The translations under genes were made by a program, and so were the position numbers. The notes under the pieces are model-generated. The model saw only the letters and a list, made by a program, of their open reading frames with translations, searched no databases and was not told where the DNA came from. From contig WGLU01000001.1 of NCBI GenBank assembly GCA_016125375.1, positions 372,001 to 436,000 of the forward strand: a stretch of 64,000 bases of DNA, read 5' to 3'. Of this stretch, positions 13,517-17,795 are shown piece after piece (position 1 is the first letter of the stretch; every line of letters begins with the position of its first letter). The DNA is from Pseudomonadota bacterium (lineage in GTDB: Bacteria; Pseudomonadota; Alphaproteobacteria; UBA1280; RI-95).

Positions 13517-13602
13517 CATGCCTGTTTTCCGCCCCTTTACTGGACTTATCGGTCTTGCGTGCCTAAACTTATTCATAGAAGAAGGAACAACCGGAGTTTG
13601 TG

Positions 13603-14901
13603 ATGAAACGGCGTGACATTCTGGCAGGTATGGGCGGTTTAGCCGCAGCTACGGCCTTGAGCGGCACGTCCACCACAAACGCTTGGGCCAAACCACAAAC
13701 ACCTGAGGTTGCTGTTCCGTACACCCTCCATCTGGTGGGCCCCTTGGGCAACGCCCACGTTAGCACAGGATTGCTGGGTTTTGGGACCCAGTCTATTGCC
13801 CAGCGCATCAACCTGCAAACCGGCGAGATTACCCAACACCCCTTCCCGACCGATGCCTGTCACTACCCCCTTATTTTGCCGGATGGCCGTTTGTTCGTAA
13901 CATCGCGCGGCTTTAACCGCGGGGCGTTCGTATCTGCCGATGGGCAGTCCACCAAAACCTTTGATCTGAATAAGTACGAGAACCTTAATTTTGGCGGCCA
14001 CGCCCTTTATGACAGCGAAAAGAACGTCATTTATGCATCTATGGCGCTTGCGACGGATAATCCGGACAGCTCCGGCTTTATTGGGGTATTTGATGCCGAC
14101 AAGCAGGAACTGGCACACCTGCAGCCCATGCCCAACAACAATACCCACGAGATTCTGTTCCTGCCCGGTAACGAAGAAATTGCCCTGACCGGTTACGCCG
14201 GCCTGTATTCAGAACACGGCAGCAGCCGCAAGCGCGGGTGGCTGGCTTTTCCGGCGGCGCACTCTCAGGTAACGATTGTGGACCGCAGCACCTTGCAGCC
14301 CAAACGCCATTATAAAATGGAAGAATACAAGGCAAGTCTTGGCCACATGACTGTGGACAAGGACGGCTATCTGTATCTGGATGCCTTCCAGTCCATTACC
14401 GGGCACCCCAAAAATGATGCTGACGTGCAGGAAATCCGTAAAGTTGCAGAGGAGTTCATCGGTGAGCGGACCTGGACACTGCACCCGGACGAAGGCGTGG
14501 AACTTGGCCGCGGTATGATGGTGCCGATGCCTGTGCTGCGCATCAACCCGCAGACGGGCGAGGTCAAACCCATCTGGGCAGAGGACAAGGGTTACCACCG
14601 CTATCCGCTCTCGTTCACCTATAGCGACAAGCTGGACCGGGTTTTTGTAACGCACATGCTGTCCAACAAACTGTTCATCATCACACCACCCGGCGATACG
14701 GTCGAAGTCATGGATGGCTGGGAGGATCTCGGCTTCCACAAAATCTCTGGCGCCCGTGCCGTACCGGGCACGCCATACATCGCCCTGTGCGACTTTAACT
14801 ATGGTGTTGTGCTGCTGGACGGTGCAACCCGCAAGATCGTCGCCCGATATGGCGTGCCGACCTTCGGGACAGAGCATATGACCATCCGCCCCCTTGTATA
14901 A
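13603..14901 (+). CDS. Tat-exported beta-propeller protein (DUF1513-like)
   Basis: The 432-residue protein begins MKRRDILAGMGGLAAATAL, a twin-arginine signal with cleavage expected after NAWA near residue 30, so it should be exported folded to the periplasm. The mature part has repeated strand-rich units such as LILPDGRLFVTSRG, GFIGVFDADKQEL, HEILFLPGNEEIALTGYAG and VTIVDRSTLQPKRHY. Their order recalls DUF1513 proteins, which often sit near imelysin-type iron proteins, but none is present here. Function is unknown. A GTG directly precedes the ATG, and CCGGAG is the likely ribosome-binding site. The gene ends about 107 bp before the HTH-RuBisCO gene; a link between them is only positional. Confidence 0.75.
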   Translation: MKRRDILAGMGGLAAATALSGTSTTNAWAKPQTPEVAVPYTLHLVGPLGNAHVSTGLLGFGTQSIAQRINLQTGEITQHPFPTDACHYPLILPDGRLFVTSRGFNRGAFVSADGQSTKTFDLNKYENLNFGGHALYDSEKNVIYASMALATDNPDSSGFIGVFDADKQELAHLQPMPNNNTHEILFLPGNEEIALTGYAGLYSEHGSSRKRGWLAFPAAHSQVTIVDRSTLQPKRHYKMEEYKASLGHMTVDKDGYLYLDAFQSITGHPKNDADVQEIRKVAEEFIGERTWTLHPDEGVELGRGMMVPMPVLRINPQTGEVKPIWAEDKGYHRYPLSFTYSDKLDRVFVTHMLSNKLFIITPPGDTVEVMDGWEDLGFHKISGARAVPGTPYIALCDFNYGVVLLDGATRKIVARYGVPTFGTEHMTIRPLV

Positions 14902-14958
14902 ACCGATGCGTTAATTATTTCCGATTTCAAGTCTGGTAAAACGGTTTTGTTTCACTCA

Positions 14959-14970
14959 TATTTGCAAATA
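14959..14970. promoter_or_regulatory. Perfect 12-bp palindrome, candidate operator of the HTH-RuBisCO operon
   Basis: TATTTGCAAATA is fully self-complementary and lies 38 bp upstream of the ATG at 15009, within the 107-bp gap after the preceding gene. The overlapping CATATT (14957-14962) could be a -10 box, although no good -35 is seen. XRE-family regulators usually bind short palindromes and often their own promoters, so this is a candidate autoregulatory site. The role is inferred from position and symmetry. Confidence 0.4.
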
Positions 14971-15008
14971 CGCCTTTGCGTGTTGTTGCTGATATGAAAG
15001 GAAACCGG

Positions 15009-16736
15009 ATGGATACCCACGACCCCATGCTGGAAACACTGGCCCTGAACCTGCGCCGTGCCATGGCGGAGGCGGATATGAGCGCGGCCGACCTTGCACG
15101 GGACTCGGGCGTGAGCATCGCCAGTTTGAGCCGCATCCTGTCCGGTCAGGTCAATCCAAGTGTGGGCAGCATGGCCAAGATCGCCCGCGTATTGGGCATC
15201 AGCCTCGACCAGTTGACGGGACAGCCGACCGTCCAGACCTTCAACGATAAAACCAGCAGCCGTGTGGCTGCCGATATGCGCACCGAAACCGACATCATTG
15301 CCTCCTTTGTACTGGAGGACACCCATTACAGCCCCAAAGAAGCTGCACGCCTGCTTGCCAATGCCGCCACAGGGAGCTGGGTCCACAGCTGGACCGAAAC
15401 ACTGGTCGACCACGAGCAGATTCCCCTGCCCCGCCCGGTGCTGGCCATGCAGACAGGGCCGCGCACCATTACAGTGGATGTGGCCTTCCCCCATGAGTTG
15501 GTCGAAACAGGCAGCATTGTCAGCCTGATATCCGTTATTTCAGCCGCGGTTACCAGCACAGGTGCCCGCATTGACGACATCCGCATCCCGCCGGTGCTGC
15601 TGCGTACCTTTGCCGGACCGTCCGAGGGGTTACAGGGCGTGCGTGATGCCTCCAACAAATATGGCAGGCCTTTGCTTTCCGCTACCATGCGGCCCGTTGT
15701 TGGCCTGTCGCCCAAGGTTTACGGCCGGGCGGTTTTTGAGGCACTGGGCGGTGGTATTGATATCACCTGTGACCCCACGTTGCTCCACAGCATCCCCAGT
15801 AACGACTGGCGCAGCCGGTTCCGCTATGTGTCTGACGCGCTGGAAATGGCCCGCAGCCAAAGTGGTGAAGGGAAAGTCCATGCCGTTAACATCAGTGCCC
15901 ACGATGTGGAGGAAATGTTGCGGCGGGCTGAAGAAGCCGCAATCCACAAAATAGGCGCCGTACTCGTTGACAGTGGTGCCATCGGCTGGTCTGCATTGCA
16001 GAGTGTCGCCACCTACTGCCACAGCCATGACCTGGTATTGTGCGCCATGGGCGGGCGCGTGCTGAACAATGGCCCGCTGAGTCAACAACTGGTGGCCAAA
16101 CTGCTGCGTTTTGCCGGGTGCGACGTTGTCAGCGTCGGCAGTCCTCTGCGGGGTAATGCGACAGCTCGCCGGAACATCAAAGGCATTGTGACCGCCCTGC
16201 GCGGTGAAAACTATGCCGCCCTGCCCGAAGGGCACGTCATGTACGATCAGCCGACCTGCGGCATCAAGAACGCACTGCCTGCCTGTGGCGGCGGTCACAA
16301 TGCCTGGCACCTGCCCCAATTGATTGACGCACTGGGTGATGACGTCATCCTCCAGTGCGGAGGCAGCACCATGGGTCACCCGTGGGGCAGCCAATCCGGC
16401 GCAACCGCCAACCGCACAGCTGTTGAAGCTCTGATTAAAGCACGTAACGAGGGCAGCAACCTCGCCGTTGACGGTCGCAGCATCCTGCTGGAAGCTGCCG
16501 GACACTGCGCCGAGCTGAAAGAAGCCCTGAACTACTGGCGCGAAGGGTCGTTCCTGTTTGGTGTTATTTCCGGTACGGAAGTGGATAACCTCGGCGCGGT
16601 TATCATCCGTGACCAGTTGGGGGGCAACAAAGCCAAGCGCCCTGCCAAAGGGGAGGCCGTGCTCAAAGACCTGACCACCGGACGGACCATTAAACGTCAC
16701 AAGGAACCCCCTGCAACGCCGGAGGAGGATAAATAA
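15009..16736 (+). CDS. XRE helix-turn-helix domain fused to a catalytically dead form I-like RuBisCO large subunit
   Basis: 575 residues. Residues 8-71 form an HTH_3/XRE domain (SAADLARDSGVSIASLSRIL). From about residue 92 the sequence follows the RuBisCO large subunit to its end: ATGSWVHSWTETL, DDIRIPPVLLRTFAGPSEG, NKYGRPLL, YGRAVFEALGGGIDIT, and GDDVILQCGGSTMGHPWG then ANRTAVEALIKARNEG. By hand alignment to the spinach enzyme: K175 is R228, K177 is V230, the carbamylated K201 is C254, D203 is P256, E204 is T257, H294 is M347, H327 is S375, loop-6 K334 is missing, E60 is N118. W66 (W124) and the Gly pair of the P1 phosphate site (G451-G452) remain. Carboxylation is therefore excluded; a DNA-binding sensor is my inference. 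ATG 15009 is favoured by AAAGGA six bases upstream; ATG 14994 adds five residues. A small-subunit gene follows after 2 bp. Confidence 0.92.
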   Translation: MDTHDPMLETLALNLRRAMAEADMSAADLARDSGVSIASLSRILSGQVNPSVGSMAKIARVLGISLDQLTGQPTVQTFNDKTSSRVAADMRTETDIIASFVLEDTHYSPKEAARLLANAATGSWVHSWTETLVDHEQIPLPRPVLAMQTGPRTITVDVAFPHELVETGSIVSLISVISAAVTSTGARIDDIRIPPVLLRTFAGPSEGLQGVRDASNKYGRPLLSATMRPVVGLSPKVYGRAVFEALGGGIDITCDPTLLHSIPSNDWRSRFRYVSDALEMARSQSGEGKVHAVNISAHDVEEMLRRAEEAAIHKIGAVLVDSGAIGWSALQSVATYCHSHDLVLCAMGGRVLNNGPLSQQLVAKLLRFAGCDVVSVGSPLRGNATARRNIKGIVTALRGENYAALPEGHVMYDQPTCGIKNALPACGGGHNAWHLPQLIDALGDDVILQCGGSTMGHPWGSQSGATANRTAVEALIKARNEGSNLAVDGRSILLEAAGHCAELKEALNYWREGSFLFGVISGTEVDNLGAVIIRDQLGGNKAKRPAKGEAVLKDLTTGRTIKRHKEPPATPEEDK

Positions 16737-16738
16737 CC

Positions 16739-17056
16739 ATGAACCCGCGCTTTGAGACGTTCTCGTTCCTGCCACCGCTGAGCATGACTGATGTCCGCAA
16801 ACAGGCAGACTACATGCTGGACAACGGTTTTGTGCCGGTGATTGAGTTTCTGGAGAATCCAATCGAGAGCGATCAGTACTGGAACCTGTGGCGCATCCCG
16901 ACCGACGAGGCGATGACATCCGGCTGGATTATCAAGCAGATCGAGCTGTGCGGGCGTTCGCATCCTTATGCGCACATCCGATTGAGCGGTTACGACTGCA
17001 AGCGCCGGATGAACGCGCACAGCTTTATCGTTGCGGTACCTCTTGAAGGTGCTTGA
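16739..17056 (+). CDS. RuBisCO small subunit homologue
   Basis: 105 residues. The start FETFSFLPPLSMTDVRKQAD matches the classic N-terminus of form I small subunits, followed by the core blocks YMLDNGFVPVIEFLENP, YWNLWRIPTD, IELCGRSHPYAHIRLSGYD and the final SFIVAVP. It most resembles the green-type (form IA/IB) family by eye. In active enzymes the small subunit caps the L8 core and has no catalytic residues of its own. A strong GGAGGAGG site at 16721-16728 precedes the ATG, and only 2 bp separate it from the upstream stop, so the two are cotranslated and probably form one complex. The last 32 bp overlap the 3' end of the convergent gene. Confidence 0.9.
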   Translation: MNPRFETFSFLPPLSMTDVRKQADYMLDNGFVPVIEFLENPIESDQYWNLWRIPTDEAMTSGWIIKQIELCGRSHPYAHIRLSGYDCKRRMNAHSFIVAVPLEGA

Positions 17057-17795
17057 GAACTTCCACCTTCTCGTCCGGCGTTAAATCGCCGGGTCGGGTG
17101 TTTTCGTAGGTCTTCTGCACATCTGTAGGCAGCCGGCTTTTCAGGAATAAAGCCCGTACGTCGTCCCCCAGTGCGCGCTGGAGATTCTTAGGCGGCATAT
17201 CGTAAATGACCTTGTCACCGTTACGGATAGCCAGCACCTTGGTTGTGCCATCCACCCCTTCATAAGCCAGCGGAAAGCCCAGCATGTTACCCAGTGCGCG
17301 CGGCACGTCGTAATAGGTACAGGGCTGGGTGCTGATGTCCGATGTCGCCAGCAGGCCGGTCGCCAGATTCAATCGGCTGATGTCCGTCATGTTAAAGTTC
17401 AATGCCTTGGCCAATTCGGCGCTGGTAAACAGCTGGCCACAGGGTTTGCGGTTGACCAGCAGACGCCAGTTGACCGTTTTGTAGCCGTTCAGAATGGGGC
17501 CCTCGCCTATTTTCTCCACCCGAACTTCCGGCGCATGGGCATCCAGCAATGGCGATACACGGACAAATCCTGTCACATCCGGTATGGCCGCAAACAGGAC
17601 ACCTTTTTTGCTATAGGTCAGTTCAGCCCCCGTGGGCGCATCGATGGTGCGGGCATTGCCATAGATATCCAGCGCCAACGTCATCGACGCGTCATTTTGG
17701 GCAAAATCGACCATCACCTGTGCGTGAGCGGGCAGCGAGAAGGCTAAAAAACAGGCGCCTAAACGGCATATGGTAAAAAAAGACTGCATACGCAC
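17025..17795 (-). CDS. Secreted hypothetical protein, 256 aa
   Basis: I do not recognise the family. A Sec signal peptide is clear (MRMQSFFTICRLGACFLAFSL, ending PAHA near residue 25), so the mature protein is periplasmic or exported. The mature part has beta-rich segments and two cysteines (RKPCGQL and TQPCTYY) that could form a disulfide. Near the C-terminus PGDLTPDEKVEVLKHLQEVP looks helical. It converges on the RuBisCO small-subunit homologue with a 32-bp overlap of the 3' ends, and it is divergent from efp. ATG 17789 is an equally possible start. Confidence 0.75.
   Translation of the reverse strand: MRMQSFFTICRLGACFLAFSLPAHAQVMVDFAQNDASMTLALDIYGNARTIDAPTGAELTYSKKGVLFAAIPDVTGFVRVSPLLDAHAPEVRVEKIGEGPILNGYKTVNWRLLVNRKPCGQLFTSAELAKALNFNMTDISRLNLATGLLATSDISTQPCTYYDVPRALGNMLGFPLAYEGVDGTTKVLAIRNGDKVIYDMPPKNLQRALGDDVRALFLKSRLPTDVQKTYENTRPGDLTPDEKVEVLKHLQEVPQR

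Follow-up and report, generated by a model that had tools for sequence, protein, structure and literature searches.

A RuBisCO small subunit kept beside a predicted DNA-binding, catalytically dead large subunit in Alphaproteobacteria

Why would a bacterium keep a RuBisCO small subunit (SSU) next to a large subunit that appears to have lost catalysis? Why form I RuBisCO retains its SSU is itself an open question, and one recent study separates solubility, stability and catalytic layers in this dependence (PMC11696622). The locus described here lies in a window of 64,000 nucleotides (the whole stretch of DNA that was analysed), where an SSU gene follows a gene that fuses a helix-turn-helix (HTH) domain to a RuBisCO large subunit. 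We propose that this two-gene operon probably makes an autoregulated, RuBisCO-derived DNA-binding protein that may sense a ligand, with the SSU kept for assembly; of this proposal, DNA binding, the ligand and an L8S8 assembly are the parts that we infer. No description of an HTH-RuBisCO fusion with an SSU was found in the open-access literature searched, including PMC7895386, PMC3190394, PMC11696622 and PMC9833052.

The small-subunit gene and its fused neighbour

The features of the locus on which the argument draws are as follows.

14956..14967, no strand: perfect 12-bp palindrome TATTTGCAAATA, a possible (weak) second half-site, from a palindrome listing
14986..14999, no strand: predicted operator TTGCTGATATGAAA (consensus TTSCATATATGSAA), 10 to 23 bases upstream of the fusion ATG, from the motif search
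15009..16736, plus strand: HTH-RuBisCO large-subunit-like fusion, 575 aa, predicted to be catalytically dead from Pfam, solved relatives and an active-site table of 20 members
15051..15215, plus strand: XRE/Cro-CI helix-turn-helix, residues 15-69 (HTH_3, E 3.5e-12; in 20/20 members)
15282..15593, plus strand: RuBisCO large N-terminal domain, residues 92-195 (PF02788, E 2.1e-6)
15633..16538, plus strand: RuBisCO large barrel, residues 209-510 (PF00016, E 2.5e-57; active-site table)
16721..16728, plus strand: Shine-Dalgarno sequence GGAGGAGG for the SSU, ending 10 nt upstream of its ATG, from the sequence
16739..17056, plus strand: RuBisCO SSU, 105 aa, from sequence, Pfam, solved relatives, an AlphaFold2 model and fold comparison

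The SSU gene runs from an ATG at 16739 to a TGA at 17054-17056, and its product contains the whole SSU signature (FETFSFLPPLS, YWNLW and SFIV). It matches Pfam RuBisCO_small (PF00101) over residues 5-99 of 105 (score 86.6 bits, cut-off 27; E 1.1e-24), its closest solved structures are the SSUs 7qsw_B and 7qsy_B (~1e-21), and its AlphaFold2 model (pLDDT 80.5) has SSUs as its top Foldseek and VIA-align matches, led by 7qsw_B (Z 13.9; rmsd 2.4 for 98 residues). The product of 16739-17056 is a genuine form I RuBisCO SSU, far beyond chance: motifs, Pfam score and structural matches all bear out what a sequence-only reading of this DNA had claimed. That reading had also pointed to a ribosome-binding site and a 2-bp gap, and both are present, the ATG following the large-subunit stop (TAA, 16734-16736) after 2 bp. 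Pairing of this SSU with the large subunit is suggested by gene adjacency and by the pattern at contact sites considered below. On the minus strand, an ORF at 17025-17795 (256 aa, no Pfam match) is convergent with the SSU gene, with a 32-bp tail-to-tail overlap (17025-17056); relatives of this ORF occur close to efp in 5 of 20 loci, one of them the window.

The HTH_3 match of the window fusion reaches 46.6 bits (cut-off 23), and at E <= 0.001 the domain is found in all 20 members of the family, as is RuBisCO_large, while RuBisCO_small is found in 19/19 SSUs at the same threshold; PF02788, by contrast, is picked up in no more than 10 of the 20 fusions. Nine residues that are present in 22/22 canonical form I sequences (E60, N123, K175, K177, K201, D203, E204, H327 and S379) are absent from every fusion, the substitutions in the window barrel being K175R, K177V, K201C, D203P, E204T, H327S and S379G. 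Across the 20, the carbamylation and metal site that defines an active form I enzyme is replaced (K201 by C, A or V; D203 by P or A; E204 by T or A), K175 is replaced by R and K177 by M, V, I, L or S, and loop-6 K334 reads as G or E in a column that depends on the alignment. Both R295 and K334 adjoin gaps, and phmmer and MAFFT align the H294/R295 stretch differently, so an apparently kept R295 is given no weight here. With the lysine that is carbamylated and the two acidic metal ligands gone, neither carboxylase nor form IV-type enolase chemistry is expected. Judged by these residues, RuBisCO catalysis is lost in the fusion large subunit.

The old active site has nonetheless been re-fixed, as opposed to drifting. 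The changes K175R, H327S and S379G are fixed in all 20 fusions, which likewise all retain the glycines G380, G381 and G403. Thirteen RuBisCO-domain columns are invariant among the fusions and differ from all canonical sequences, and 11 of these are no more than 4 residues away from an active-site position, a closeness shared by 84 of 419 other columns (p 1.9e-6). Near the active site, the columns with substitutions are also more uniform than those elsewhere (mean entropy 1.03 vs 1.80, p 6e-8). Because a pocket without function should drift, whereas this one was rebuilt and held, we infer that it has a ligand. An AlphaFold2 run on the large subunit, made with three sequences, gave a pLDDT of 40.9 and its model was set aside.

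Descent, distribution and selection

The family is known, among the genomes sampled, from 20 genomes of non-photosynthetic bacteria in two alphaproteobacterial orders. In the window's order, the fusion occurs in 3 of 6 genomes (the three without it are 72-89% complete), and in the second order in 17 of 18. An even draw of 385 genomes from the class gave 32 with a match at 1e-15; seven of these matches are full-length with an HTH (557-1148 bits), namely the three from the window's order together with G293, G201, G370 and G087 from the second, and the other 25 score at most 316 bits. A sample of 398 genomes from the phylum added no fusion (best other match, 342 bits), the viral contigs searched contained no relative, and genome contigs probed with two peptide patterns only yielded two relatives (records UBA6503 and OFTM141).

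A RuBisCO-like protein that lacks the catalytic residues could be a form IV enzyme which recruited an SSU independently, and the sequence-only reading had seen a paradox in an SSU paired with such a protein, form IV not being known to use one. We consider a form IV origin very improbable, and the paradox dissolves with it. In the large-subunit tree, the 20 fusions form one group (100/100), whose branch is long (1.77) and which is placed next to canonical form I and the reconstructed form I ancestor, apart from the three outgroup rows, two of which are form II-like as judged from residues. Among NCBIfam models, the window fusion scores 319 bits with NF003252 (the large-subunit subfamily, a form I/III model), 193 with the type III model and 95 with PRK13475, which we take to be the form II model. 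Against this 319, the form IV models give 68-97 bits, far under their cut-offs (the two enolase models NF007095, 96.7 vs 409, and TIGR03332, 75.1 vs 513.6; OiaX, 67.6 vs 700). The SSUs that partner the fusions form a single group separate from canonical SSUs (99/96), as co-inheritance predicts. Because the tree grouping agrees with a far better form I/III than form IV score, the fusion is, by its sequence, a form I-derived RuBisCO minus catalysis and not form IV. Its membership of form I by descent follows tree placement and the SSU in 18/20 loci, in trees built without form I', form III and confirmed form IV references. The simplest history would be a single capture of a form I pair, an HTH fusion and the loss of catalysis.

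Is the pair instead a decaying relic of a lost Calvin cycle? Searches of the 20 fusion genomes turned up no RuBisCO besides the fusion pair, and no phosphoribulokinase scored over its cut-off in any of them. Hence the hosts show no Calvin cycle, and the absence of both phosphoribulokinase and canonical RuBisCO speaks for such a relic. We give this explanation practically no credence. The reading frames are open in 20/20 loci, and the two least saturated pairs, in which both genes have a dS below ~1.4, give omega values of 0.054 and 0.056 for the large subunit and 0.057 and 0.108 for the SSU. In most pairs, including those with the window's genome, dS is saturated and only the rejection of neutrality can be read; omega = 1 is rejected in 15/15 large-subunit pairs (likelihood ratio at least 298.7) and 14/14 SSU pairs (at least 39.7). 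By these values, both the fusion and SSU genes are under strong purifying selection. The re-fixed pocket, the conserved operator (below) and retention of the fusion by 17/18 genomes of one order also run against decay. The comparison of dN/dS that had been suggested from the sequence alone thus falls far below neutral for both genes (0.05-0.06 large, 0.06-0.11 small), and the suggestion that this is no decaying pseudogene stands, with neutrality rejected in every pair tried and an SSU in 18/20 loci.

Retention and loss of the small subunit

The SSU had been read as a kept partner of the dead large subunit, a view that homologues consistently without an SSU would have spoken against. Of the 20 loci, 18 have an SSU gene downstream of the fusion and in the same orientation, which upholds that view. 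The two genes are at most 30 bp apart in 15 loci (short overlaps included), 226 bp apart in one, and 480 and 555 bp apart in G370 and G398, respectively. In G370 (L026 5604-6098), fusion and SSU are separated by an ORF that looks deaminase-like by eye, and the gap in G398 is about as large. A 19th SSU is in G391 (L074), a genome that is 54% complete, and the 1.4 kb upstream of it contain no large subunit. Distances among SSUs and among large subunits are correlated (Mantel r 0.75, n 18; none of 5000 permutations reached this value), as shared descent alone also predicts.

The two exceptions, G087 (97% complete) and G390 (85%), belong to one genus and have no SSU over the cut-off anywhere in the genome. 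They are nested within the family, beside G387 and G388 (98/76 in the large-subunit tree), and because of this position the absence reads as a secondary loss. Since one genus dropped it, the SSU is not indispensable.

Did the large subunit change where the SSU would have touched it? The contact sites used are those that PMC3190394 prints in its Table 1, a subset that falls short of a full contact map. The SSU-less pair has residues unseen in the other 18 fusions at 9 of 19 of these sites, against 80 of 411 others (p 0.007), and its share of canonical-like residues falls from 0.61 to 0.34 at SSU-contact sites, as opposed to a change from 0.60 to 0.66 at dimer-dimer sites. In a post-hoc test restricted to contacts that SSU-bearing members conserve, the SSU-less pair changed 5 of 7, compared with 45 of 181 (p 0.015). 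Five control pairs with SSUs were run in each of the two tests, and one of them, G003/G005, also shows a contact excess (6/19 vs 26/411, p 0.0014), with p 0.0148 in one setting of the post-hoc test and 0.054 in the other. Because this SSU-bearing control exceeded chance, a tie between contact-site change and SSU loss is suggestive only; the SSU surface itself may simply be changeable. Among SSU-bearing members, contact sites are no more canonical-like than the remaining sites (MWU p 0.57).

One explanation of the retention is structural entrenchment and nothing more: surfaces inherited by the large subunit would make it aggregate or fall apart when the SSU is missing, and the SSU would contribute nothing to the new function. 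The escape of one genus, with its changed contact sites, fits such an account, as does dN being higher for the SSU than for the large subunit in 8 of 14 pairs. Set against it are the rarity of the escape (2 of 20, in one genus only) and 12 SSU columns that are invariant across all 19 SSUs. On balance we lean slightly towards entrenchment, which is compatible with our main reading of an autoregulated DNA-binding protein whose SSU serves assembly. Because catalysis is gone, the structural layers of SSU dependence are the likely reason for keeping the SSU, and assembly of fusion and SSU into an L8S8 complex is plausible.

The predicted operator and the proposed function

What might an HTH domain do at the head of such a complex? 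A motif search on the 160 bases upstream of the fusion gene in each of the 20 genomes (150 bases for G293) returned the 14-bp palindrome TTSCATATATGSAA, with a motif total of 329.1 compared with 168.3 in 20 dinucleotide shuffles (sd 4.0, maximum 175.4). The sites were pre-picked upstream, and ranking with a matrix from which the tested genome's clade was left out removes this circularity for that genome, remoter relatives excepted; so ranked, the upstream site comes first in 19 of 20 loci (5,601 to 63,987 positions each) and fourth in G395. In the window, TTGCTGATATGAAA is first of 63,987 positions with its own clade omitted, and TATTTGCAAATA is not among the positions that reach 10 bits with the family matrix. 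In 71,820 bases of RuBisCO loci from other genomes there is one match at the same threshold. A palindromic operator at its own promoter is what characterises an XRE regulator, and the predicted site, top-ranked in 19/20 loci, has that position. Control of its own promoter by the HTH through the 14-bp palindrome is strongly indicated by this pattern.

The exact pattern TTBCANATNTGVAA occurs at 73 places in the 20 genomes, compared with 47 for the reversed pattern, and eight of the 73 are fusion promoters. From the 65 non-promoter sites, 52 were examined, 48 of which fall within ORFs and four between them (the ORFs being called mechanically). A large shared regulon was rejected on this count, although a looser motif could hide one, and the picture suggested by sites that elsewhere lie mostly in ORFs is one of autoregulation. 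Two sites outside the fusion promoters deserve mention: an exact operator-like site, one of the few outside ORFs, 12 bp ahead of a 355-aa ORF in G389 (L129 2926), a possible second target, and a second perfect operator, TTTCATATATGAAA, ~110 bp past the fusion stop in G390, which has no SSU (L056 6702-6715).

Across the 20 loci, the SSU is the sole conserved neighbour of the fusion and no metabolic gene is conserved alongside. Considered as partners, proS, efp and a secreted protein were rejected, since they recur only as local synteny in subsets of loci. Between proS and the fusion, the window encodes a protein (13600-14901) that weakly matches a TAT signal and DUF1513; in L008, proS is directly upstream of the fusion, without that protein between them.

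On our reading, the large subunits would continue to assemble into an oligomer capped by SSUs, L8S8 or similar, that presents several HTHs together, and the HTHs would bind the palindrome and repress their own operon. The former catalytic pocket, which keeps the phosphate-loop glycines and has a new set of fixed residues, may bind an anionic metabolite or sugar phosphate, and the bound ligand would alter operator binding; the SSU would be retained for stability and solubility of the oligomer. In its most specific form, which we put forward tentatively, this is a ligand-gated transcription factor that arose once, with eight HTHs on a dead, SSU-capped L8S8 core whose former active site senses a phosphorylated metabolite.

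An alternative is that the HTH merely balances expression in a simply autoregulated operon, while the RuBisCO part catalyses a new reaction or acts as a scaffold. A motif seen at the operon's own promoter, with no regulon in view, would suit this arrangement, as would a re-fixed pocket. Yet with the carbamate lysine and the two acidic metal ligands gone from 20/20 fusions, RuBisCO or form IV enolase chemistry is unexpected, and no metabolic neighbour is conserved. We regard this alternative as unlikely, though worth keeping in mind beside the ligand-sensing regulator that we prefer.

If the ligand-sensing reading is true, a much-studied enzyme fold has met a new fate, passing from carbon fixation to gene control, and the SSU has its first known job without RuBisCO catalysis, with one genus as a natural escape from SSU dependence. 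Evolution having stripped catalysis here, the structural layers of that dependence can be studied alone, with the SSU-less genus as a natural contrast. Both parts, the fusion and the SSU, are small and amenable to tests in E. coli.

Among the closest known systems are form I RuBisCO (L8S8) and its reconstructed ancestor AncLS (7qsw), with which the pair shares the large- and small-subunit folds, gene order and SSU signature, and which give the best sequence matches for both subunits. Unlike them, the fusion has an N-terminal HTH and its own predicted operator and lacks the carbamylated lysine, the metal ligands and K175/K177, and its hosts, in contrast to those of form I RuBisCO, have no detected Calvin cycle. 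MtnW and other form IV RuBisCO-like proteins are alike in having the RuBisCO fold with no RuBisCO activity expected; the fusion departs from them in its form I ancestry, kept SSU, DNA-binding domain, low scores with form IV models and lost metal-site residues.

The SSU fold has roles beyond tuning catalysis in the SSU-like domains of Rubisco activase and in CcmM, which bind active RuBisCO, and the Rubisco activase SSU-like domains 6has and 6z1g are among the structural matches to the window SSU model. The window SSU differs from these in being paired with a dead large subunit, in a genome where no active RuBisCO was found.

For the regulatory half, BzdR and BoxR offer a lead: they are XRE regulators with an HTH and a shikimate-kinase-like domain, and resemble the fusion in joining an N-terminal XRE HTH to a former enzyme domain. 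The BzdR-like model NF006015 gives the window fusion 32.3 bits against a cut-off of 204, through the HTH part only, and unlike BzdR and BoxR the fusion would have a RuBisCO as its sensor, one needing a second subunit. In its manner of working, the fusion is most likely similar to the known one-component XRE regulators with an enzyme-derived sensor.
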